A stretch of 59,750 nucleotides of DNA. It comes from Marivita sp. GTDB taxonomy: Bacteria > Pseudomonadota > Alphaproteobacteria > Rhodobacterales > Rhodobacteraceae. The first letter of the stretch is position 1. Every line of letters starts with the position of its first letter. The stretch lies in contig NZ_JAIPUT010000024.1 of NCBI RefSeq assembly GCF_020055635.1, positions 1 to 59,750 on the forward strand, given 5' to 3'. Shown piece by piece: positions 13,217-23,737 of the stretch. The notes under the pieces are model-generated. The model was not told the origin of the DNA, ran no database searches, and saw only the letters and a list, made by a program, of their open reading frames with translations. The position numbers and the translations under genes are program-made.

Positions 13217-15046
13217 ATGCCCGCCTCGGATTCGTCCAATATGGACAAAGGACGCCGTCACCCGGCGCCGAAACCAGCAAAGGCCAAAGCCGGACTGATG
13301 AATGTCATGCAGGGACACACAGCACGACCCGCGGTTCCGCCCCAGGCGAAAACCGAACTGATCGAGATCGTGTCCTATCTGGACAATTTCGCGGACGAGC
13401 TCGAGGATACGATCGAGCTGTTTACGCCCAACCCGTATTTCCGCATGGCCCTGCATCTGATGCGCGGGCATCTCGACGCCAAGATCGTGACGCCGACATC
13501 GCTCATCGCCGCCAGCCGGGTGCCCTATGCAACGGCCAATCGCCGTCTCAAGGAAATGGTCGATGCCGGTCTGATCGAACAGCGCCCGCGCACGACAAGC
13601 GGCAAGAGCTACTCTCTGCATCCAAGCGAAAAGCTTCTGGACCAGTGGCTCCAGCTGTCGGGCCGGATCAAGCGGCTTGGCGAAGACCAGTTCGCAGGCG
13701 GTGCAACCCGCGAGAACCGCGACTACTTTTTCGGCGGATCCTACCTGGCCGCGCAGTCGATCCCACCGCTTCAGGTGCTGGCCGAACCGATCAAGGTTCC
13801 GGGGGGCGTGCGCGTTCTGGTGCATGGCGATCCGACCTTCATGGTCATGGACGGGCTCAAGCGTCAGTTCGAGCACGTGATTGGTTCACCGATAAACCAA
13901 CGGGCCTTCTCGATCGACCGGCTGCGCGAAGAGGCGATGCGCAACGCCGAACGCAAGTCCAGCCGCTACGACATCATCGCCGTCGATCTGCCCTGGCTCG
14001 GAGCGTTCGCGTCGGAAAACGTGCTGATGCCGCTTGACGAGGCGATGGACATTTCGCGGCTCGACCCCGCCGATTTCCACACCGCAGGATGGAAAGCCGC
14101 GCATTGGGGGGGGCGCTGCTATGGCGTGCCGGCACAGACGACGCCGGAGCTTCTGTTCTATCGCAAGGACCTGTTCGCGGAGGCCGGGCTCGAGCCGCCG
14201 ACGACCACCGATCGCCTGCTGGAAGCGGCCGCTGCCTTTCACGAACCCCTGCGCGACCGGTTCGGGATCGCCTGGAATGCCGCACGGGGCACGGCGCTTG
14301 GCCACACGGTCCTGATGACAATGGCGGATTTTGGTCAACCGATCCTCGACCTGCCGCAGATCGCCGGCGGTTTCGAGACCGATCACCTGTCCGAGCGCGG
14401 CTATCGCGCCACCATCGACACCGAGGCGGGCCTGCGCGCCGCTGAATACCTGATGCAGCTCATGCAGTTCTCGCCGCCGGATATCCTGTCGATGTCATGG
14501 TACGAGCGGGTGCGCCCCTACGCCGCCGGCAGGATCGCCATGGCCTATGGTTACACGCTGCTCGCGCCGTATTTCGAACTCGACGAGAGCTCGCCCGCCT
14601 ACGGGAACACCGCCTATTTGCCACATCCGCCGGGGCCCGATGCATCGCCGGTGGCGCCGGTCGGCGGCTACGTGATGGGCATTCCGGCCAACCTGCCGCC
14701 AGAGCGGGTTCGCGCCGCTGTCGAGGCGCTGATCGTTTTCACGTCGCCCGAAGCGCAAAAGCTCTATGTCCAGAACGGCAGCCGCACGAACCCGCGCTAT
14801 TCGGTCGGGGCCGATCCCGAGGTGCGCCGGGCCTCGGATATTTTCGAGGCCATCGACACGATGTCGTGGCGCGACGAGTTGCAATTCTGGCCGCGCCCGC
14901 CGGTGCCCGAGATCACCGACATCATCCAGATCTGCGGCGAGGAATTTCACGACATGCTGCGCGGGATCGTTTCCCCGCGCGACGCGCTGCGTCAGGCCCA
15001 GGCTCGGGCGGACGCGGTCATCACACAGAACGGGCCAAGACAATGA
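13217..15046 (+). CDS. Winged-helix regulator fused to ABC solute-binding (SBP family 1) domain
   Basis: 609-residue protein without a signal peptide. Residues 1-45 are basic and disordered. Residues about 65-140 form a MarR/IclR-like winged helix: VTPTSLIAASRVPYATANRR is the helix-turn-helix, then LIEQRPRTTSGKSYSLHP is the wing. Residues about 185-600 match extracellular solute-binding protein family 1, including the lobe motif LLFYRKDLFAEAGLEPPTT, a GGYVMGIPANLP strand and a FTSPEAQKLY helix. The start has GGAGGG 7 nt upstream. It most likely acts in the cytoplasm as a ligand-sensing transcription factor for the flanking importer and dehydrogenase genes, the SBP fold serving as sensor. Confidence 0.85.
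   Translation: MPASDSSNMDKGRRHPAPKPAKAKAGLMNVMQGHTARPAVPPQAKTELIEIVSYLDNFADELEDTIELFTPNPYFRMALHLMRGHLDAKIVTPTSLIAASRVPYATANRRLKEMVDAGLIEQRPRTTSGKSYSLHPSEKLLDQWLQLSGRIKRLGEDQFAGGATRENRDYFFGGSYLAAQSIPPLQVLAEPIKVPGGVRVLVHGDPTFMVMDGLKRQFEHVIGSPINQRAFSIDRLREEAMRNAERKSSRYDIIAVDLPWLGAFASENVLMPLDEAMDISRLDPADFHTAGWKAAHWGGRCYGVPAQTTPELLFYRKDLFAEAGLEPPTTTDRLLEAAAAFHEPLRDRFGIAWNAARGTALGHTVLMTMADFGQPILDLPQIAGGFETDHLSERGYRATIDTEAGLRAAEYLMQLMQFSPPDILSMSWYERVRPYAAGRIAMAYGYTLLAPYFELDESSPAYGNTAYLPHPPGPDASPVAPVGGYVMGIPANLPPERVRAAVEALIVFTSPEAQKLYVQNGSRTNPRYSVGADPEVRRASDIFEAIDTMSWRDELQFWPRPPVPEITDIIQICGEEFHDMLRGIVSPRDALRQAQARADAVITQNGPRQ
13234..13246. promoter_or_regulatory. Second palindromic operator candidate inside regulator coding start
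   Basis: GTCCAATATGGAC is a perfect 13-bp palindrome covering codons 6-10 of the regulator gene. It lies exactly 84 bp from the copy at 13151 (four times the 21-bp spacing between the first two cores), so all three could lie on the same DNA face. It would suit autorepression by a bridging or roadblock mechanism. Confidence 0.5.
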
Positions 15047-15064: not shown

Positions 15065-15874
15065 ATGGACCCCAACCGCCTGAAAGGTAAGAACATCCTG
15101 ATCACCGGTGCCGCGCGCGGCATGGGGGCCGCGAATGCGGAAAGCTTTGCCGCGCAGGGCGCCAACGTGTGTATCGGCGATCTTGACGAAGGTGAAGCCA
15201 AGAGCATGGCCGACCGGATCAACGGCGCGGGCAACGGCACCGCCATCGCGGTCAGGATGGACGTCACCAAGCGCGAAGACAACGCCGCCGCTGTTGCAGC
15301 CACGGTCGAGGCGTTCGGGTCGATCAATGTGGGTCTCTTCAACGCGGGTTTGAACAAGCCCCGGTTCTTCATGGATATCGATGAAGACAACTGGGACATG
15401 ATCATGAACGTCAACACCAAGGCGATGTGGCTCGGGATGCAGGAAACCGCCCGCCAGATGATCAAGCAGGGCCCGATGGAGGATCATCCCTACAAGCTGA
15501 TCAACGTGGGCAGCATCGCGTCGCGCAAGCCGCTGGTCGACGTGACCGTCTATTGTACGTCGAAATACGGCTGCCTGGCGCTGACCCATTGCGGCGCGAT
15601 CGGTCTGTCCGAGCACAACATCACCGTCAACGGCTATGCGCCGGGGGTCGTGGTGACGCCGCTCTGGGAACAGCTGGACAAGGACCTCGTGGATATCGGC
15701 TTCAAGGATCGCGAAGGCCAGGCCTACGAGGACATCGTCCGCGATGCGCTCCAGATCAAGCGCGTGTCCTACCCCGAGGACATCACCGGCACCGCGTCGT
15801 TCCTTGCCTCGGATGACAGCGACTACATGACCGGCCAGATGATCCACATCGATGGCGGCTGGTGCATCCAGTAG
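15065..15874 (+). CDS. SDR family oxidoreductase
   Basis: 269-residue short-chain dehydrogenase with ITGAARGMGAANAE, NAG at strand 4, NVGSIAS and catalytic YCTSK, ending SDYMTGQMIHIDGGW. A strong GGGAGGAG precedes the start. It is 18 nt downstream of the regulator and resembles in architecture the SDR in the leftward arm, so the locus has two dehydrogenases flanking the control region plus a third at its right end. Confidence 0.93.
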   Translation: MDPNRLKGKNILITGAARGMGAANAESFAAQGANVCIGDLDEGEAKSMADRINGAGNGTAIAVRMDVTKREDNAAAVAATVEAFGSINVGLFNAGLNKPRFFMDIDEDNWDMIMNVNTKAMWLGMQETARQMIKQGPMEDHPYKLINVGSIASRKPLVDVTVYCTSKYGCLALTHCGAIGLSEHNITVNGYAPGVVVTPLWEQLDKDLVDIGFKDREGQAYEDIVRDALQIKRVSYPEDITGTASFLASDDSDYMTGQMIHIDGGWCIQ

Positions 15875-15958: not shown

Positions 15959-17257
15959 ATGTCTCGCGCACTCATGCCCAACCTGCTCACGCCGCAGGAT
16001 CTCGAACCCAACTGGGAATGGCGGGAACGCCTGCCCGCCTGGGGCCACACCTCGGTCGATTTCGAACGCCGGATCGACCATGATCGCCTGCGCCGCTACC
16101 GCCTGGCGCGCACGCGTCAGTCGTTGCAGAACTCGCAGGCCGGGTCGCTGCTGCTCTTTGACGTGAACAACATCCGCTATGTCACCGCCACCAAGATCGG
16201 CGAATGGGAGCGGGACAAGATGTGCCGCTTCTGCCTGCTGACGGGCGACGATTCTCCTTACGTCTGGGATTTCGGTTCGGCCGCGGTGCATCACAAGCGC
16301 CATTCCGACTGGCTTGAGCCGGATCATTGCCTTGCCGGCGTCGTCGGCATGCGCGGGACCATTCCGCCCGAGTTTGGCCTGATGCGCAAATACGCCAAGA
16401 TGATCGCCCAGCTGATCAAGGATGCGGGCATGGCCGACATGCCGGTGGGTGTGGACTATGCCGAAACGGCGATGTTCCACGCGCTCAAGGAAGAAGGCAT
16501 CAACGTCGTTGACGGTCAGCAGATCATGCTGGCGGCCCGCGAGATCAAGAACTGGGACGAAATCCAGTTGCTCACCCAGGCCGCCGCGATGGTCGATGGC
16601 GTCTACCACATGATCTACGAGGAACTGAAACCGGGTGTGCGCGAGAATGACATCGTCGCAATGTCCAACAAGCTGCTCTATGAGATGGGGTCGGATGACG
16701 TCGAGGCGATCAACGCCATCTCCGGCGAACGCTGCAACCCGCATCCGCATAATTTCACGGACAGGTTGATCCGCCCGGGCGACCAGGCGTTCTTCGACAT
16801 CCTGCAAAGCTACCAGGGCTATCGGACCTGCTATTACCGCACCTTCAATGTGGGCCGCGCCACCCCGGCGCAGAACGACGCCTACGTCAAGGCGCGCGAA
16901 TGGATCGACGCGTCCATCGCGATGATCAAACCCGGAGTGTCCACCGACAAGGTGGCCGAGGTCTGGCCAACCGCCGAAAGCCTTGGCTTCCCCAACGAAG
17001 ACGCGGCCTTCGGTCTGCAATTCGGCCACGGTCTGGGCCTTGCCCTGCATGAACGCCCGATCATCAGCCGCGCGGTCAGCCTCGATCACCCGATGGAGAT
17101 CCAGACCGGCATGGTCTTCGCGCTCGAAACCTACTGTCCGGCCGCCGACGGCTACTCGGCGGCGCGGATCGAGGAAGAGGTGGTGGTGACCGAGACGGGA
17201 TGCGAGGTGATCAGCCTTTTCCCCGCCGAGGAACTGCCCATCGCGAACCGTTACTAG
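15959..17257 (+). CDS. M24-fold (pita-bread) protein, DddP/Xaa-Pro peptidase/creatinase-like, altered metal site
   Basis: 432-residue two-domain protein: a creatinase-type N-terminal domain (SLLLFDVNNIRYVTATKIGE) and a pita-bread catalytic domain. Four of the five usual metal ligands are present (D280, H357, E390, E405), but the second bridging Asp of the DxxxxxxxxxxD motif is C291 in GYRTCYYRTF. The overall pattern resembles roseobacter DddP-like M24 proteins as well as peptidases; creatinase shows that the fold can work as a non-metal hydrolase. ATG 15959 follows ACGGAG by 6-7 nt. Function is uncertain; a C-N or C-S bond-cleaving role on the locus substrate is possible. Confidence 0.75.
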   Translation: MSRALMPNLLTPQDLEPNWEWRERLPAWGHTSVDFERRIDHDRLRRYRLARTRQSLQNSQAGSLLLFDVNNIRYVTATKIGEWERDKMCRFCLLTGDDSPYVWDFGSAAVHHKRHSDWLEPDHCLAGVVGMRGTIPPEFGLMRKYAKMIAQLIKDAGMADMPVGVDYAETAMFHALKEEGINVVDGQQIMLAAREIKNWDEIQLLTQAAAMVDGVYHMIYEELKPGVRENDIVAMSNKLLYEMGSDDVEAINAISGERCNPHPHNFTDRLIRPGDQAFFDILQSYQGYRTCYYRTFNVGRATPAQNDAYVKAREWIDASIAMIKPGVSTDKVAEVWPTAESLGFPNEDAAFGLQFGHGLGLALHERPIISRAVSLDHPMEIQTGMVFALETYCPAADGYSAARIEEEVVVTETGCEVISLFPAEELPIANRY

Positions 17258-17335: not shown

Positions 17336-18331
17336 ATGGCCAAGACAAAAACAAACACCGAAGATTACCTGCAGATGTACCGCCAGATGGTGCGCATCCG
17401 CACCTTCGAGGACAATGCCAACAAGCTGTATCTCGACGCCAAGATGCCGGGGCTGACGCACATGTATTCCGGCGAGGAAGCCGTCGCCGTGGGCATCTGC
17501 GAAGCGTTGAAGGTGACCGACAAGATCACCTCGACCCATCGCGGGCACGGGCATTGCGTCGCCAAGGGCGCGGCCTTCAAGGAAATGTTCTGCGAATTGC
17601 TTGGCAAGGAAGAAGGCTATTGCCGTGGCAAGGGCGGGTCGATGCACATCGCCGACCAGTCGAACGGCAACCTGGGCGCAAACGCCATCGTCGGCGGGTC
17701 CATGGGCATCGCCACCGGGTCGGCCTTTACCGCCAAGATGCTGGGCACGGATGACGTGACGGTGTGCTTTTTCGGCGATGGCGCCACCGCGCAGGGCCTT
17801 CTCTACGAGGTCATGAACATGGCGGCGCTCTGGAAGCTGCCGGTGATCTATGCCTGCGAAAACAACGGCTATTCGGAATATACCAGGACCGAGGAAATCG
17901 CCGCCGGGTCGATCACCGCCCGCGCCGAGGCGTTCGGCATCGAGGCGCACCAGGTCGACGGGCAGGATGTTCTGGCCGTCAACACGCTGACGCAAAAGCT
18001 GGTGGCACGTGCGCGCAAGGGCGAAGGGCCGTTCTTTCTCGAATTGATGACCTATCGCTACCATGGCCACCATGTCGGCGACATCAACCGCGAATACTAC
18101 CGGACCAAGGACGAAGAGAAGGACTGGAAGGAAAACCGCGACCCGATCATCCGCTTCCGGGGCTGGCTCGTGTCCGAAGGCATCGCCTCGGAAGACGAGA
18201 TCGAGGCGATGAACGCCGAGGTCAGGCAGGACGCGGAACAGGCCGTCGATTACGCCCTGAACGCCAAGTACCCGGATGTGTCCGAAGTGGACATGCATGT
18301 CTACAGCGACATCAAGCACGCGCTGGCCTGA
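17336..18331 (+). CDS. 2-oxoacid dehydrogenase E1 component, alpha subunit (PDH/acetoin dehydrogenase type)
   Basis: 331-residue ThDP-dependent subunit. It has the E1-alpha phosphate and ThDP-binding signatures THRGHGHCVAKG, GKGGSMHI, GDGATAQGLLYEVMN and ENNGYSEYT, and LELMTYRYHGHHVGD near the phosphorylation-loop region. With the beta subunit, encoded 10 nt downstream, it decarboxylates a 2-oxoacid (or cleaves acetoin) and acylates the lipoyl domain of E2. The context beside a sugar importer rather than house-keeping pdh genes suggests a substrate-specific complex. Confidence 0.93.
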   Translation: MAKTKTNTEDYLQMYRQMVRIRTFEDNANKLYLDAKMPGLTHMYSGEEAVAVGICEALKVTDKITSTHRGHGHCVAKGAAFKEMFCELLGKEEGYCRGKGGSMHIADQSNGNLGANAIVGGSMGIATGSAFTAKMLGTDDVTVCFFGDGATAQGLLYEVMNMAALWKLPVIYACENNGYSEYTRTEEIAAGSITARAEAFGIEAHQVDGQDVLAVNTLTQKLVARARKGEGPFFLELMTYRYHGHHVGDINREYYRTKDEEKDWKENRDPIIRFRGWLVSEGIASEDEIEAMNAEVRQDAEQAVDYALNAKYPDVSEVDMHVYSDIKHALA

Positions 18332-18341
18332 GGAGAGAACG

Positions 18342-19337
18342 ATGCGAGAAATTACCCTGTCCCAGGCCGTCAACGAAGCGCTGGCCGAAGAAATGCGCCG
18401 CGACGAGCGGGTGTTCATCATCGGTGAAGACGTGGCCGAAGCGGGCACCCCCTTCAAGGTGCTGGCCGGTCTGGTCGAGGAGTTCGGCACCGGTCGCGTG
18501 GTGGACACGCCGATCGCCGAACCCGGCTTCATGGGGATCGCCGTGGGGGCTGCCATGACCGGCACCCGGCCTGTCGTCGACCTGATGTTCGGCGATTTCA
18601 TCTACCTGATCATGGACCAGCTTTGCAACCAGGCGGCCAAGACGCATTACATGTCGGGGGGCAAGCTCAACGTGCCGCTGGTCCTGCGCACCAACCTGGG
18701 CGCGACCCGCCGGTCGGCGGCGCAGCACAGCCAGTCCCTGCAGGCGCTGGTGGCGCATATTCCCGGCCTGAAGGTGGCGATGCCGTCCTCGGCCTACGAA
18801 GCCAAGGGCCTGATGAAGACCGCCATCCGCGACGACAACCCGGTGGTGATCTTCGAAGACAAGCTGATGTACCAGGACAAGGCCCCGGTGCCGGAAGAGG
18901 AATACCTGATCCCCTTCGGCGAGGCCAATATCAAGCGCGAAGGCACGGACATCACGCTGATCGGCACCTCGTCGATGGTGCAGGTCGCCGAGAAGGCCGC
19001 CGAGATCCTGGCCCGCGAAGGCATCGAGGCCGAGGTGATCGACCCCCGCACCATCGTGCCGCTGGACGAGGCGACGCTGCTGAAAAGCGTCCGCAAGACC
19101 TCGCGCGCCATCGTCATCGATGAGGGGCATCAAAGCTACGGTGTCACCGCCGAGATCGCCAGCCGGATCAACGAAAAGGCGTTCTACCATCTTGACGCGC
19201 CGGTACTGCGCATGGGGGCGATGGACGTCCCGGTGCCGTTCTCGCCCGCGCTGGAAGACGTCACCGTGCCGACACCCGAGGGTGTGGCCGAAAACGCGCG
19301 GCGGCTCATGTCAGGGGAGATGATACATGCCGCATGA
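18342..19337 (+). CDS. 2-oxoacid dehydrogenase E1 component, beta subunit
   Basis: 331-residue transketolase-like subunit. It begins MREITLSQAVNEALAEEMRR, with GEDVAEAGTPFKVLAGL and the IAEPGFMGIAVGAAM core motif, and ends in the transketolase C-terminal domain (VIDPRTIVPLDEATLLKSV). AGGAGAG lies 5 nt upstream of the ATG. It overlaps the E2 lipoyl gene by 11 bp, indicating translational coupling and fixed stoichiometry of the complex. Confidence 0.94.
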   Translation: MREITLSQAVNEALAEEMRRDERVFIIGEDVAEAGTPFKVLAGLVEEFGTGRVVDTPIAEPGFMGIAVGAAMTGTRPVVDLMFGDFIYLIMDQLCNQAAKTHYMSGGKLNVPLVLRTNLGATRRSAAQHSQSLQALVAHIPGLKVAMPSSAYEAKGLMKTAIRDDNPVVIFEDKLMYQDKAPVPEEEYLIPFGEANIKREGTDITLIGTSSMVQVAEKAAEILAREGIEAEVIDPRTIVPLDEATLLKSVRKTSRAIVIDEGHQSYGVTAEIASRINEKAFYHLDAPVLRMGAMDVPVPFSPALEDVTVPTPEGVAENARRLMSGEMIHAA

Positions 19338-20646
19338 CGTCACGATGCCTCAGCTGGGCATGGCGCAGGATGCGGGCAAGATCGTGTCCTGGCTCAAGGC
19401 GCCGGGTGATCCGGTGGCCGAGGGCGATGCGCTTTTCGAGGTGGAAACCGACAAGGCCACGATGGAGGTCGAGGCGCAGGCGGCGGGCTTTTTGTCCGGC
19501 GTGACGGCTGCGGCGGGCGAGGATGTGCCCGTCGGGCAGGTGATTGCCCGGATCACCGAAGAGGCCGAGGACGACTCCGCTCCGCCCGAGCCCTCTGCGC
19601 CCTCTGCGCCCTCTGCGCCTCAGTCCAGCGGCGGTGACGATCTGCCCGAGGGCATAGAGGTGACCATGCCGCAACTGGGCATGGCGCAGGACAGTGGCCT
19701 GCTCGTGGCGTGGCACAAGTCCCCCGGTGACGCGGTTCAGGCCGACGATGTCCTGTTCGAGGTGGAAACCGACAAGAGCACGATGGAAGTGCCCGCCGGG
19801 GCCGATGGTTACCTGGCCGCCACCCTTGCCGAGGCGGGCGAGGATGTGCCGGTCGGCAACGCGGTCGCCGTCATTTCCGCCGAAGCGCCGTCCAACCCGG
19901 TGACCCGGTCTGCCGCGGCGGCCAAGGCCCCTGCCCCCAAGGCCGAGCCTGAGCAGGCTGAGAAACCGACAGAGCGTGAAACAAGACAAAAGCCCGCCAG
20001 CAAACCCGCACCGAAAACGGCGCCCGCGAATTCTGCCAACGGGCGCATCCTCGCGTCGCCGAAGGCGCGCAAGATGGCGCTGGACCAAGGGCTTGACCTG
20101 AACCGCCTGGTCGAGGCCGGACACCCGCAGCCCTATCACGTGGCCGATCTCGAGGTGCTGAAATCCCTGCCCACCAAGTCCGCCCAGACGAACGCGGTCC
20201 AGACCCGGCATCTGACAGCCGAGATCCCCGCCGATGGGTTTGCCGATTTCGCCCGCTGGGCCGCAGACACCGCCGGATTGTCCGATCAAAACGCCCTTCT
20301 GGCCGGTCTGGCGGCAGCCTGCCTGCCCACGGGAACCGGCACGGTGCGCGTCGAGGCGTTGGGGCAGTCACATAGCTATGCCGTGATGCCCGGCCCGCTA
20401 TCCACCATCCAGCCTGCCGAACCGGACAGGCCCGCCGACCTGATCCTGCGCGATCTGCGTTTCAGCCGGATCACGTCTGTCCACCTCGGGGCCGAGCCCG
20501 CGCCTGTCCTGACCCTGGCTCGCAACGGCGACGCCTTGGCGATCACGCTGGAATGCGCAGGAGATCACCTGACCGCATCCGACGCCCTCACCCTGCTTTC
20601 CGAATTCGCAGGCCGGATGGAGCAACCGCTCCGCCACCTGCTCTAG
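19327..20646 (+). CDS. Di-lipoyl E2-like protein with E3-binding domain and degenerate acyltransferase region
   Basis: 439 residues. Two lipoyl domains occupy residues 1-80 and 108-188, with lipoylation lysines K43 and K150 (both in EVETDK). They are joined by a Pro-Ala linker. A peripheral subunit-binding domain follows at about 239-275 (ILASPKARKMALDQGLDL). The C-terminal 160 residues are far shorter than an E2 catalytic domain and lack the DHRxxxG active-site motif. The protein therefore resembles an E3-binding protein or lipoyl donor rather than a full acyltransferase. The complete catalytic domain is encoded separately at 22098. Confidence 0.85.
   Translation: MPHDVTMPQLGMAQDAGKIVSWLKAPGDPVAEGDALFEVETDKATMEVEAQAAGFLSGVTAAAGEDVPVGQVIARITEEAEDDSAPPEPSAPSAPSAPQSSGGDDLPEGIEVTMPQLGMAQDSGLLVAWHKSPGDAVQADDVLFEVETDKSTMEVPAGADGYLAATLAEAGEDVPVGNAVAVISAEAPSNPVTRSAAAAKAPAPKAEPEQAEKPTERETRQKPASKPAPKTAPANSANGRILASPKARKMALDQGLDLNRLVEAGHPQPYHVADLEVLKSLPTKSAQTNAVQTRHLTAEIPADGFADFARWAADTAGLSDQNALLAGLAAACLPTGTGTVRVEALGQSHSYAVMPGPLSTIQPAEPDRPADLILRDLRFSRITSVHLGAEPAPVLTLARNGDALAITLECAGDHLTASDALTLLSEFAGRMEQPLRHLL
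19591..19617 (+). repeat. Three tandem 9-bp repeats in the lipoyl linker
   Basis: CCCTCTGCG occurs three times in direct succession and encodes a Pro-Ser-Ala repeat in the flexible linker between the two lipoyl domains. Such a repeat can change length by slippage without shifting the frame. Confidence 0.85.
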
Positions 20647-20661
20647 GCCATGGAGACCCGC

Positions 20662-22092
20662 ATGGAATTCACCGATCTCTACATCAACGGAACTTGGGTT
20701 CCGGGGGCCGACAAGGAGCGCTTCGACGTCATCAACCCTGCCACCGAACAGGTTCTGGCCTCGGTCGCATCAGCCGGGATCGCCGATGCCGATGCCGCGC
20801 TCGATGCGGCGGAAAAGGCGATGGCCGACTGGGCCGCGCGCACGCCCCGCCAAAGGTCCGAAGTCCTGCGCAAGGCGTGGGAACTGATGACCGCGCGGCT
20901 GGATGAGTTTGCGCACATGATCACGCTGGAAAACGGCAAGGCGGGCACCGATGCCAAGGGCGAGGCGACCTATGCCGCCGAATTCTTCCGCTGGTTCGCC
21001 GAGGAAGCGGTACGCGCCGACGGGCTGATCACACATGCCCCGGCCTCCGGCGCGCGCATCATGGTGCAGCACAAACCGGCCGGGCTGGCTGTTCTGGTCA
21101 CGCCCTGGAACTACCCCGCCGCGATGGGCACCCGCAAGATCGCCCCGGCGCTGGCGGCTGGCTGCGGCGTGATCATCAAACCCGCCTCCGAAACGCCGCT
21201 GACCATGCTGGCGCTGATGCCGCTGCTGGAAGAAGCCGGAGTGCCGCCCGGTCTGGTCAACGTGCTGCCCTCGAAGAAGACCGGCGCGCTGGTGGACCAC
21301 ATGCTGCATGATCCGCGTGTTCGCGTGGTCAGCTTTACCGGCTCCACGGGTGTCGGGCGCAAGCTCTTGAAATCCGCCGCCGACCAGGTGCTGAAACCGG
21401 CGATGGAACTGGGCGGCAACGCGCCTGTGGTGGTATTCGAGGATGCCGACATGGACACCGCGATCGAAGGCACGATGCTGGCCAAGATGCGCAACCTGGG
21501 CGAGGCCTGCACGGCGGCGAACCGCATCTACGTGCATGAAGACATCGCCGAAGCCTTCACGCAGCGGCTGACCGAAAAGATGTCCGCGCTCAAGGTTGGC
21601 GACGGCACCGACCCGTCCGTCGATGTCGGCCCGCTGGTGAACGCTCAAACCCGCGAGAAGGTGGCGGAATTTGTCGCCGACGCGGTCGCCAAGGGCGCCA
21701 GGATCGAATGTGGCGGCACCACGCCCGAAGGCACAGGGTACTATTACCCGCCAACCGTCCTGTCGAACGTGCCGGAAACCGCCGACTGCGTGCATGACGA
21801 GATTTTCGGACCGGTCGCCGCGATCCAGACCTTCGCCGATCAGGAAGAGGTCATCCGGCGCGCGAACGCCACCGAGTACGGTCTTGTCGCCTATGTGTTT
21901 TCCGGCGACATGAAACGCGCCCTGCAGGTTTGTGAACGGCTCGATTACGGCATGGTCGGGCTGAACCGCGGGCTTGTCTCCGACCCGGCGGCACCGTTCG
22001 GCGGCACCAAGCAATCGGGGCTCGGGCGCGAGGGCGGGCATGAAGGCATGCTCGAATTCATGGAAACACAATACATCTCGGCAAGCTGGTGA
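20662..22092 (+). CDS. NAD(P)-dependent aldehyde dehydrogenase (succinate-semialdehyde dehydrogenase-like)
   Basis: 476-residue ALDH. The cofactor and catalytic motifs are VTPWNYPAAMGTRKIAPAL, FTGSTGVGRKL, MELGGNAPVVVFEDADMD with the general-base Glu, and the nucleophile Cys in NLGEACTAANR. The ATG at 20662 follows GGAG by 6 nt and gives the usual MEFTDLYINGTW start; ATG 20650 would add four residues. It lies between the two E2 genes, so it is part of the dehydrogenase operon. It would oxidise an aldehyde from the same pathway to an acid. Confidence 0.93.
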   Translation: MEFTDLYINGTWVPGADKERFDVINPATEQVLASVASAGIADADAALDAAEKAMADWAARTPRQRSEVLRKAWELMTARLDEFAHMITLENGKAGTDAKGEATYAAEFFRWFAEEAVRADGLITHAPASGARIMVQHKPAGLAVLVTPWNYPAAMGTRKIAPALAAGCGVIIKPASETPLTMLALMPLLEEAGVPPGLVNVLPSKKTGALVDHMLHDPRVRVVSFTGSTGVGRKLLKSAADQVLKPAMELGGNAPVVVFEDADMDTAIEGTMLAKMRNLGEACTAANRIYVHEDIAEAFTQRLTEKMSALKVGDGTDPSVDVGPLVNAQTREKVAEFVADAVAKGARIECGGTTPEGTGYYYPPTVLSNVPETADCVHDEIFGPVAAIQTFADQEEVIRRANATEYGLVAYVFSGDMKRALQVCERLDYGMVGLNRGLVSDPAAPFGGTKQSGLGREGGHEGMLEFMETQYISASW

Positions 22093-22097
22093 GCGGT

Positions 22098-22991
22098 ATG
22101 AGTGATGTCATAGCAGCCCCCTCCGTACGCGCCCTTGCGCTCAAGAAAGGCATCGACATCGACGCGCTGGCCCGCGATCTGGGCCGCACCACCATTGCGC
22201 GCGAGGATTTGGAGGCCCGAAAGCCCGCAGCAGCGGCAGCCGCGCCGGGGCCCGCCGGAGACACGTCTTACTGGGACGTCGATCACGGCCAATACGGCCC
22301 GGTGAGTGAAGAACCGATGAGCCGGTTCGCACAGGTGGCCGCGAAAAACCTGGCCGCCGCGAACAGCCTGATCCCGCAGGTGACCCATCATGACCGCGCC
22401 GATGTCAGCGCGATCGAGGCTTTGCGCAGATCGCTGAGGCCCGAGGCGCAGGCGCGCGGCGTCAAGCTGACCGCGCTGGCCTTTCATGCCAAGGCGCTGG
22501 CCCGCGCGCTGCGGGAGTTTCCCCGCTTCAACGCGTCGCTGTCTGCGGATGGCAAGACGTTGATCCTCAAGGACTACGTGCATATCGGGATTGCCGTCGA
22601 CACCGCCCACGGGCTGATGGTGCCGGTGCTGCGGGATGTCGACAAGAAGGGTCTCTGGCAGATCGCCGCCGAAATCACCGATCTTGCCAGCCGCGCGCAG
22701 GCCCGCAAGGTGGCGCCGGACGAGATGGGTGGCGCGTCCATGTCGATCTCGAACCTCGGCGGTATTGGCGGCATCGGGTTCACCCCCATCGTCAACCCGC
22801 CCGAGGTGGCGATCCTGGGCCTGACGCGGACCGAAACAGTGACCGTCTGGGACGGCGACACGCCACGCCCCGTGCCGATGGTGCCGCTTGATCTGAGCTA
22901 CGACCACCGGGTGATCAACGGTGCCGACGCCGCACGGTTCGTGAGTCACCTTGCCGGGTTGATCGCAGAGCCGCGCCGGATCATGATCTGA
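22098..22991 (+). CDS. Lipoyl-less E2 acyltransferase (subunit-binding plus catalytic domain)
   Basis: 297 residues: a peripheral subunit-binding domain at about 7-40 (APSVRALALKKGIDIDALAR), a Pro-Ala linker, then a full chloramphenicol-acetyltransferase-like catalytic domain. The active-site motif is SYDHRVINGADAARF, with H270 catalytic and Asn in place of the common Asp, as in some functional E2 proteins. SISNLGGIGGIGFTPIVNPP is the conserved core. No lipoyl domain is present, so it must use lipoyl groups supplied by the protein at 19327. A GTG at 22089 that overlaps the ALDH stop is an alternative start. Confidence 0.88.
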   Translation: MSDVIAAPSVRALALKKGIDIDALARDLGRTTIAREDLEARKPAAAAAAPGPAGDTSYWDVDHGQYGPVSEEPMSRFAQVAAKNLAAANSLIPQVTHHDRADVSAIEALRRSLRPEAQARGVKLTALAFHAKALARALREFPRFNASLSADGKTLILKDYVHIGIAVDTAHGLMVPVLRDVDKKGLWQIAAEITDLASRAQARKVAPDEMGGASMSISNLGGIGGIGFTPIVNPPEVAILGLTRTETVTVWDGDTPRPVPMVPLDLSYDHRVINGADAARFVSHLAGLIAEPRRIMI

Positions 22992-22993
22992 TC

Positions 22994-23737
22994 ATGGCGA
23001 CCGACCTGCATATCGACCTGACCGGCAAGACCGCGCTGGTGACCGGTGCAAGCCGTGGCATCGGCGCCGCCATTGCCAAATGCCTGGCCGCGTGCGGCGC
23101 AAGAGTGATCGGGATCGGCACGGGCATCGAGGCCGATGGCACGGGGGATGGCATCCTCCCGATGAATTGCGACCTGTCGGACCGTGCGCAGATTGACGCC
23201 CTGCTGGCCCGTCTCGACGGCGATGGGCATGAGATCGACATCCTGGTCAACAATGCCGGGATCATCCGCCGGGCCGAGGCCGCGGTTCACGACACCGACG
23301 ACTGGGACGCGGTGATGGCGGTGAACCTCGACGCGGTCTTCCTGCTGTGCCGCGAACTGGGCCGGCGGATGGTGGATCGCGGGTCCGGCAAGATCGTCAA
23401 CGTGGCCTCGGTGCTGTCCTTCCAGGGCGGTATCCTCGTGCCGGGATATGCCGCGTCCAAAGGGGCCGTTGCGCAGCTGACCAAGGCCTTTGCCAATGAA
23501 TGGGCCGCCAAGGGTGTGAACGTGAACGCCATTGCGCCGGGCTATGTCGCGACCGACAATACGTCGGCCCTGCAAGCGGACGCGGAGCGCTCTGCCGACC
23601 TGATGGTGCGCGTTCCGGCGGGGCGCTGGGGCACGCCCGACGACATCGCTTGGCCGGTCGCGTTCCTGGCCAGCGACGCGGCGGCGTTCATTCACGGAGT
23701 TGTCCTGCCGGTGGACGGGGGATGGCTGTCGCGCTGA
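22994..23737 (+). CDS. SDR family oxidoreductase (KduD-like)
   Basis: 247-residue short-chain dehydrogenase with VTGASRGIGAAIAK, NNAGIIRR, VASVLSFQGG and catalytic YAASK, ending HGVVLPVDGGWL. The NNAGIIRR and FQGGILVPGYAASKGAV patterns recall 2-deoxy-D-gluconate 3-dehydrogenases. It starts 2 nt after the E2 stop and is the last gene of the rightward operon, before a terminator for the opposite strand. Confidence 0.92.
   Translation: MATDLHIDLTGKTALVTGASRGIGAAIAKCLAACGARVIGIGTGIEADGTGDGILPMNCDLSDRAQIDALLARLDGDGHEIDILVNNAGIIRRAEAAVHDTDDWDAVMAVNLDAVFLLCRELGRRMVDRGSGKIVNVASVLSFQGGILVPGYAASKGAVAQLTKAFANEWAAKGVNVNAIAPGYVATDNTSALQADAERSADLMVRVPAGRWGTPDDIAWPVAFLASDAAAFIHGVVLPVDGGWLSR

Follow-up and report, generated by a model that had tools for sequence, protein, structure and literature searches.

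The sections of PMC10156792 consulted here describe the E3-binding protein (E3BP) of eukaryotes as a dead paralogue of the acyltransferase E2, term it a eukaryotic gene, and present the core domain of fungal E3BP as a reduced, partial E2 fold. The same sections state that in bacteria E1 and E3 are both recruited by one shared domain, and treat two questions as open, the reason for the lost activity of the mammalian E3BP and what gave rise to E3BP in the first place. Lipoyl domains have also been placed on chains other than E2: the part of PMC7873978 used here reports one on E3, in PdhD of Mycoplasma hyopneumoniae and also in A. eutrophus and N. meningitidis, and the portion of PMC10415282 that concerns actinobacterial OdhA describes a reliance on lipoyl groups supplied in trans. 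Here we analyzed an operon within a 59,750-nucleotide stretch of Marivita sp. DNA (NCBI RefSeq assembly GCF_020055635.1, contig NZ_JAIPUT010000024.1, positions 1 to 59,750, forward strand; hereafter the window), in which the parts of an E2 appear to be divided between two genes. One encodes an E3BP-like di-lipoyl protein of 439 aa, which we call LLS (19327-20646), and the other a lipoyl-less E2, which we call E2cat (22098-22991); these and all other window features given below lie on the + strand.

LLS resembles E3BP, as the latter is portrayed in those sections of PMC10156792, in having lipoyl domains, a subunit-binding segment and a presumably dead core-homologous domain beside an active E2, a likeness of domain order in which the core homology spans the last ~36 residues and the subunit-binding homology 26 residues only. 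Its reduced core domain likewise recalls the partial E2 fold described there for fungal E3BP. Unlike E3BP, LLS is bacterial and is encoded in a single operon together with E1 and an aldehyde dehydrogenase, and whereas the eukaryotic E2 keeps a lipoyl domain of its own, E2cat has none; set against a standard 2-oxoacid dehydrogenase E2, it has the catalytic and subunit-binding domains and lacks the lipoyl domain. As in the pyruvate dehydrogenase (PDH) complexes with a lipoyl-bearing E3 (PMC7873978, same part), the lipoyl domains sit on a chain other than the acyltransferase, but in contrast to the Mycoplasma-type PDH that chain is not E3 but a separate, E2-derived protein with a subunit-binding segment of its own. 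As described for OdhA/KGD (PMC10415282, same portion), the acyltransferase would presumably be served by the lipoyl arms of another chain; unlike OdhA, an E1-E2 fusion with the housekeeping AceF as its server, the operon encodes a dedicated lipoyl protein. Searches of the main text of open-licence papers yielded no account of a lipoyl-less E2 paired with a dedicated lipoyl chain whose E2 core domain is dead. In the best reading of these sequences, LLS and E2cat would be a bacterial counterpart of the E2/E3BP core that arose independently; the comparison with E2/E3BP had been drawn, aptly, in the first-pass annotation of this DNA. The counterpart would be the more extreme of the two, because its catalytic chain has no lipoyl domain. 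LLS may thus work like E3BP, by analogy; we do not claim that it is a member of E3BP.

LLS is a di-lipoyl protein with a degenerate C-terminal domain

The N-terminal part of LLS holds two Biotin_lipoyl domains (PF00364, E=7.9e-37), the first at 19333-19554 with the lipoyl-lysine motif EVETDKA and the second at 19657-19875 with EVETDKS, both presumably lipoylated. Behind them lies a strongly conserved subunit-binding-domain-like segment (20038-20166), which matched the Pfam E3_binding model weakly (residues 241-261, E=0.0014, under the curated cut-off). In a profile comparison with 21 canonical segments it reached E=1.1e-8 and a score of 38.3, over 26 residues only; the controls did not exceed 16.9 (seven unrelated families) and 12.4 (25 column shuffles). 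We take the segment to be real, with a match that covers its first half alone. The usual G-R loop is replaced in it by AGHPQPYHV, which is kept, or nearly so, in most homologues, and the selectivity of the segment for E3 may therefore be altered, in either direction. When LLS was compared with PDB sequences using phmmer, the best matches were to E2 chains and covered the lipoyl and subunit-binding part; among the matches listed, protein X chains aligned best over lipoyl domain 1 and the part that follows it (to residue 89-102).

The rest of the protein, residues 297-439 (20215-20643, ~143 residues), forms a degenerate domain that evolves fast (mean pairwise identity 0.47, 51 loci). LLS had no match to Pfam 2-oxoacid_dh, which was absent from this C-terminal domain at E<=1 in all 51 members; every family in the Pfam scan of the domain was matched by at most one of the 51, and PDB sequences gave three chance-level matches (best E=0.64). 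An initial comparison of profiles linked the domain only weakly to E2 (E=0.018, probability 2.6), and later comparisons used more sequences (67 homologues) together with decoy controls. The 67-homologue profile scored 28.0 against 43 E2 catalytic domains and 28.5 when set against just the 11 canonical members of that set, compared with at most 16.9 and 20.5, respectively, for 25 shuffles of each set, at most 19.7 for seven unrelated families, and at most 19.0 for ten reversed alignments (seven unrelated, three E2 sets).

This E2 signal is confined to the last 36 residues (20536-20643). These are homologous to the C-terminal stretch of the E2 catalytic domain (by hhalign, E=7.1e-5 and a score of 28.6, as opposed to no more than 15.8 for seven unrelated families and 17.5 for 40 shuffles) and end at the same place as the E2 domain. 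At the position of the catalytic His, aligned without gaps, the window's LLS has Gly and none of the 67 homologues has His (A 27, P 13, G 12, E 5, S 4, V 2, D 2, Q 1, T 1); DHRxxx[GN] occurs in the last 160 residues of none of the 67. With this His lost, the LLS core domain is predicted to be catalytically inactive. The two lipoyl domains, the subunit-binding segment and the missing DHRxxxG had all been recognized in the first-pass annotation; the shortened C-terminal region that it described, however, is detectably homologous to E2 over the last ~36 residues only.

E2cat has an intact catalytic domain and no lipoyl domain

E2cat matched the 2-oxoacid_dh family (PF00198, E=1.7e-75) over a catalytic domain at 22302-22985, in which the motif YDHRVING is intact (active-site His codon at 22905-22907), and had no Pfam match to a lipoyl domain. 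Its subunit-binding domain (22107-22226) is shortened, with a shorter loop in which G-R is retained. The match to Pfam E3_binding was weak (E=0.0075, below the cut-off), and comparison with the 21 canonical segments gave E=1.2e-11 and a score of 49.4 over 42 residues, with seven unrelated families at most at 16.0 and 25 column shuffles at most at 16.5. The earlier description of this gene, as a subunit-binding domain and an intact catalytic domain without a lipoyl domain, thus stands, as does the claim that both chains keep a subunit-binding domain, each scoring above its controls. So does its start at 22098, which agrees with the relative L038, where the E2cat frame begins at the equivalent site.

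Across 55 E2cat proteins, YDHR[VA][ILV]NG is present in 54; the 55th, which has no match, is taken to be that of L085, cut by the contig end. The Asn of the YDHRVING-type motif is natural also in the E2p of Azotobacter vinelandii. The closest solved chain to E2cat is 1eaa, a dihydrolipoyl transacetylase, and in a quick tree with a midpoint root and long branches the E2cat proteins formed one clade (33 rows; Shimodaira-Hasegawa-like approximate likelihood ratio test, SH-aLRT, 96), lying in an unresolved group with the genome's own AceF-type E2 (contig C184) and one E2 from the genome of L105. E2cat is therefore like the AceF-type E2p of the AceE-AceF-Lpd set in its shared tree group and closest chain, and unlike it in lacking a lipoyl domain, in its shortened subunit-binding loop and in having an alpha/beta E1 as neighbor. 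NCBIfam NF008815, a 308-position E2 model that is apparently itself lipoyl-less, judging from its length and the span matched by E2cat, gave E2cat 153 bits against a cut-off of 378.

The split arrangement is conserved and the two genes co-occur

In the window, LLS and E2cat are preceded by the two subunits of a thiamine diphosphate (ThDP)-dependent dehydrogenase and separated by an aldehyde dehydrogenase. E1 alpha (17336-18331; PF00676, E=7.7e-81) is a conserved neighbor. E1 beta (18342-19337; PF02779/PF02780, NF006667 above the cut-off) has a frame that opens at 18276 and a start set from homologues at 18342; its stop overlaps the LLS start by 11 bases, the PDB chains nearest to it are those of pyruvate dehydrogenase E1 beta, and over 345 columns it shares 95% identity with the E1 beta of Marivita geojedonensis. 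The aldehyde dehydrogenase lies at 20650-22092, between the two E2 halves as the first-pass annotation had it, and is succinate-semialdehyde-dehydrogenase-like (PF00171, E=4.6e-163; below the cut-off of TIGR01780).

Scanning named genome contigs with the M24 family protein encoded upstream confirmed 339 relatives, the best 80 of which are the loci studied; by their titles these are Alphaproteobacteria, mostly of the Roseobacter group. Among these 80, E1 beta was found in 49, while 27 had no E1 but a KduD-like dehydrogenase (at least 45% identity to the KduD-like dehydrogenase of the window) and in four (L060, L076, L082, L093) the contig stops within E1 alpha. This survey of gene order, which the first-pass annotation had suggested, found the order E1 alpha, E1 beta, LLS, aldehyde dehydrogenase, E2cat recurring in dozens of loci, which argues that the arrangement is not due to chance. 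A frameshift or a misassembly as the cause of the split was rejected on the same ground, the identical order across many loci. The module occurs on plasmids of cultured marine bacteria too, among them Phaeobacter inhibens pP92_e and a plasmid of Tritonibacter mobilis.

LLS proteins were counted in the named loci, the window, L041, L042, L033 and loci from further genomes, leaving out L165 (G650, though carrying LLS and E2cat) as well as L080 and L087, where contig ends cut LLS. Two lipoyl motifs are present in 56 of the 64 full-length proteins, one in seven and none in one (L033); L159, whose lipoyl motif is off by one residue, brings the one-lipoyl forms to eight. E2cat, whole or cut by a contig end, accompanies 55 of the 56 two-lipoyl proteins, 54 of them by blastp (L085 as a cut stretch) and L173 in the contig tail at 57% identity; the remaining locus, L111, has 419 bases left beyond the aldehyde dehydrogenase. 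A strict rule by which two lipoyl domains mean E2cat and one means none was rejected by the Tritonibacter mobilis plasmid, where a one-lipoyl LLS is found together with E2cat. In the lipoyl-free locus (L033:5179-7293, genome G029) the aldehyde dehydrogenase is in two pieces and a 238-aa protein consists of the degenerate C-terminal domain without lipoyl domains; these genes appear to be a remnant of the module.

Genome-wide, the LLS domain was found in 39 of 295 family genomes, or 38 once the match in G540 (L174), an unrelated frame, was removed, and E2cat orthologues (at least 58% identity) in 31; eight further E2cat matches (44-49% identity, frames of 430-777 aa) were taken as canonical E2s. 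Both occur together in 30 genomes, where ~4 would be expected by chance. LLS alone occurs in eight (G029, G030, G488, G556, G563, G582, G599, G666), and E2cat alone in one (G500, on a contig of 3184 bases); in G563, LLS lies on a 6504-base contig of the same size as that of L085, where E2cat is end-cut. These counts show that the two genes are kept together, and the earlier view of them as complementary halves of one E2 is supported. A sample of the class had the LLS domain in five of 385 genomes (two of its own family, two of f117 and one of f166). Many Roseobacter-type marine bacteria thus appear to have an E2 core split over two genes.

Co-variation within the module was assessed through distances in 51 loci, compared by partial rank correlation with the aldehyde dehydrogenase and the M24 protein as background. 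The degenerate domain of LLS co-varied most with the E2 catalytic domain (0.56), followed by the E2 subunit-binding domain (0.41), E1 alpha (0.39), lipoyl domain 2 (0.29), E1 beta (0.26), its own subunit-binding segment (0.19) and lipoyl domain 1 (0.17). After thinning to 36 loci the values were 0.54, 0.39, 0.36, 0.20, 0.17, 0.27 and 0.07 in the same sequence of partners. This pattern would fit a contact between LLS and E2cat, though its margin over E1 alpha becomes small when the numbers of variable columns are equalised (see below).

E3 and further E2s in the genome and in relatives

No E3 was found on the window's contig, the genome's five Pyr_redox_dim matches all lying on other contigs. 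That the locus encodes no E3, as the first-pass annotation stated, is hence true for this contig, but some relatives have one in the same operon: a dihydrolipoyl dehydrogenase lies within 400 bases behind E2cat in six of the 49 loci in which E2cat is followed by over 1500 bases of sequence. In the annotation of the Phaeobacter inhibens plasmid pP92_e this E3 is named lpdA, and the Phaeobacter E3 adjoining E2cat has 459 aa and no lipoyl match.

The window's genome encodes three further E2s. The one on contig C22 is SucB-like; that on C29 adjoins an E1a and a lipoyl-bearing E1b; that on C184 is preceded by a 933-aa putative AceE frame, with an E3 carrying a lipoyl domain coming next. A full-length E2 elsewhere that serves the E1 of this operon, which the first-pass annotation saw as speaking against a split E2, may be among these three, two of which have E1-type neighbors (one the putative AceE) and one of which is SucB-like.

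A separate observation concerns a plasmid of Streptomyces sp. YIM 121038 (L195:12380-15398), where a fused E1 alpha/beta lies near a relative of the M24 protein (62% identity). The E2 of this locus has 264 aa, a subunit-binding domain and no lipoyl domain, and its catalytic motif reads DPRAVDG, the His being lost; tblastn with lipoyl domain 1 of the window gave chance-level matches only in the 19-kb L195 stretch. It would be a second lipoyl-less E2, of a different kind.

A probable complex with E2 divided over two chains and its alternatives

We consider it probable that this is the operon of a 2-oxoacid- (or acyloin-) dehydrogenase complex of its own, a dedicated one in which E2 is divided over two chains. 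In such a complex, E1 (17336-19337) would decarboxylate or cleave the substrate and acylate the lipoyl arms of LLS, which would be the source of all lipoyl groups and would bring a subunit-binding segment of its own. LLS would dock on an E2cat core through its reduced, dead C-terminal domain, and this core would move the acyl group from the LLS lipoyl arm to coenzyme A. The arms would then be reoxidised by an E3 encoded elsewhere in the genome or, in some relatives, directly behind E2cat; the two subunit-binding domains would presumably hold E1 and E3 between them. An aldehyde arising in the same pathway is probably what the aldehyde dehydrogenase between LLS and E2cat oxidises. By its sequence the E1 is of the pyruvate-dehydrogenase type, and the aldehyde dehydrogenase and the nearby dehydrogenases would suit an acetoin-dehydrogenase-like acyloin cleavage too.

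Several results weigh against this proposal. Eight one-lipoyl loci (L042, L105, L159-L164) keep E1 while E2cat is absent from the stretch, and a search with the E2cat protein found an orthologue in none of nine genomes (G029, G030, G382, G488, G556, G582, G599, G666 and that of L105), where the E2 matches were 27-37% identical in frames of 408-514 aa, plus fragments in G599 and G488. Since E1 and LLS are kept there without E2cat, LLS can work, or persist, in its absence, and the wording of the first-pass annotation, that the complex must mix two chains, is unsupported. The lipoyl and subunit-binding parts have diverged in the E2cat-less loci as well (mean identity 0.60 for lipoyl domain 2 and 0.52 for the subunit-binding segment, against 0.73 and 0.73 in all 50 E2cat loci), so that the divergence reaches beyond the docking domain. 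When 30 variable columns were used for each region, the E2 catalytic domain gave 0.37, the E2 subunit-binding domain 0.38, E1 alpha 0.30, lipoyl domain 2 0.26, E1 beta 0.19, the own subunit-binding segment 0.18 and lipoyl domain 1 0.16; as the lead shrinks with equal columns, part of the co-variation may reflect shared history, and gene linkage can raise such values. As for the C-terminal domain itself, its 67-homologue profile scored 23.4 against 32 E2cat-like domains, whose own shuffles reached 21.8, and two 45-residue segments, N-terminal and middle, had no significant match to E2; demonstrable descent from E2 is thus limited to about a quarter of the domain.

The loci without E2cat could instead mean that LLS is an adaptor, loading a special E1 onto housekeeping E2 cores of the PDH/AceF type, with E2cat optional and lost in places. 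Consistent with this are the eight loci themselves, five of which retain the aldehyde dehydrogenase, the nine genomes without an orthologue and the three other E2s of the window's genome. The fragment in G488 (L160:8580-8723) also fits, being a decayed E2cat tail directly behind the aldehyde dehydrogenase (44% identity, with KRRVING where DHRVING is expected), which indicates that E2cat was lost in that lineage. In a tree of E1 beta, with few well-supported branches and a very long outgroup branch, six of the eight E2cat-less forms group with L041 and L171, where E2cat is present (support 83, weak), while L159 is the deepest row and L164 is placed apart. What makes this explanation rather unlikely is the near-perfect pairing with E2cat in the two-lipoyl lineages and the greater divergence of the C-terminal domain where E2cat is missing, as if docking on E2cat were a main constraint on it: identity to the window's domain is 18-33% in the eight loci without E2cat and 37-51% in the seven E2cat loci with an E1 beta identity below 0.87.

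Alternatively, the C-terminal domain may have an activity of its own or oligomerise with itself, LLS then being a free lipoyl carrier that moves undocked among E1, E2cat and E3. The missing E2 homology in its N-terminal and middle parts would agree with that, and OdhA, in the portion of PMC10415282 cited above, offers a precedent for lipoyl groups in trans; yet the last 36 residues are E2-homologous, the strongest co-variation of the domain is with the E2 catalytic domain, and the strong conservation of the subunit-binding segment suggests docking to a partner, which leaves this explanation improbable. We give very little credence to the view that the split is merely a decaying arrangement, a module heading for loss without special assembly. 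It could draw on the fast evolution of the C-terminal domain, the lipoyl-free remnant in G029 and the decay of E2cat in G488, but the E2 active-site motif is intact in 54 of 55 E2cat proteins, and conservation is good in E1, in the aldehyde dehydrogenase and in the catalytic domain of E2, at mean pairwise identities of 0.76-0.88 over 51 loci. A dedicated complex with a divided E2 therefore remains the reading we prefer.

Genes surrounding the module

Upstream of the operon, in the window as in many relatives, lies a gene (13217-15046) for a 609-aa solute-binding protein that begins with a putative helix-turn-helix. Its ABC-type solute-binding domain (PF01547) spans residues 248-515, and the MarR-type helix-turn-helix ahead of this domain was matched weakly (E=5.8e-4); the protein is perhaps a cytoplasmic sensor-regulator derived from a binding protein. 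A short-chain dehydrogenase (15065-15874) and the M24 family protein (15959-17257) follow, and a second short-chain dehydrogenase lies behind E2cat (22994-23737). The M24 protein has a mean pairwise identity of 0.93 in the 51 loci; its nearest NCBIfam model is the dimethylsulfoniopropionate (DMSP) lyase DddP, with a score far under the cut-off, and in its stretch FFDILQSYQGYRTCYYRTF the family's second metal-binding Asp seems to be missing. Tetramethylpyrazine was tried as a lead to the pathway and yielded nothing.

In the loci that have the KduD-like dehydrogenase, the alternative module behind the M24 protein is exemplified by L115:11302-13957, where hidden Markov models identified the KduD-like dehydrogenase, a second dehydrogenase and an FMN-dependent lactate-dehydrogenase-like protein. 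The E1-E2 module and the KduD-like module look like two exchangeable ends of one pathway.

Implications for E2 cores in the Roseobacter group

If E2 is indeed divided over LLS and E2cat, an E2 core would be able to run wholly on lipoyl arms from a partner chain encoded in the same operon. It is conceivable, and we put it forward tentatively, that a full division of labour in a bacterial E2 core evolved independently of mitochondria and that, where E2cat was lost, LLS became an adaptor plugging a private E1 into a housekeeping E2. The questions raised by E3BP would then become testable in a small bacterial operon, by reconstitution in E. coli, for which natural variants exist in one-lipoyl, two-lipoyl, with-E2 and without-E2 forms.

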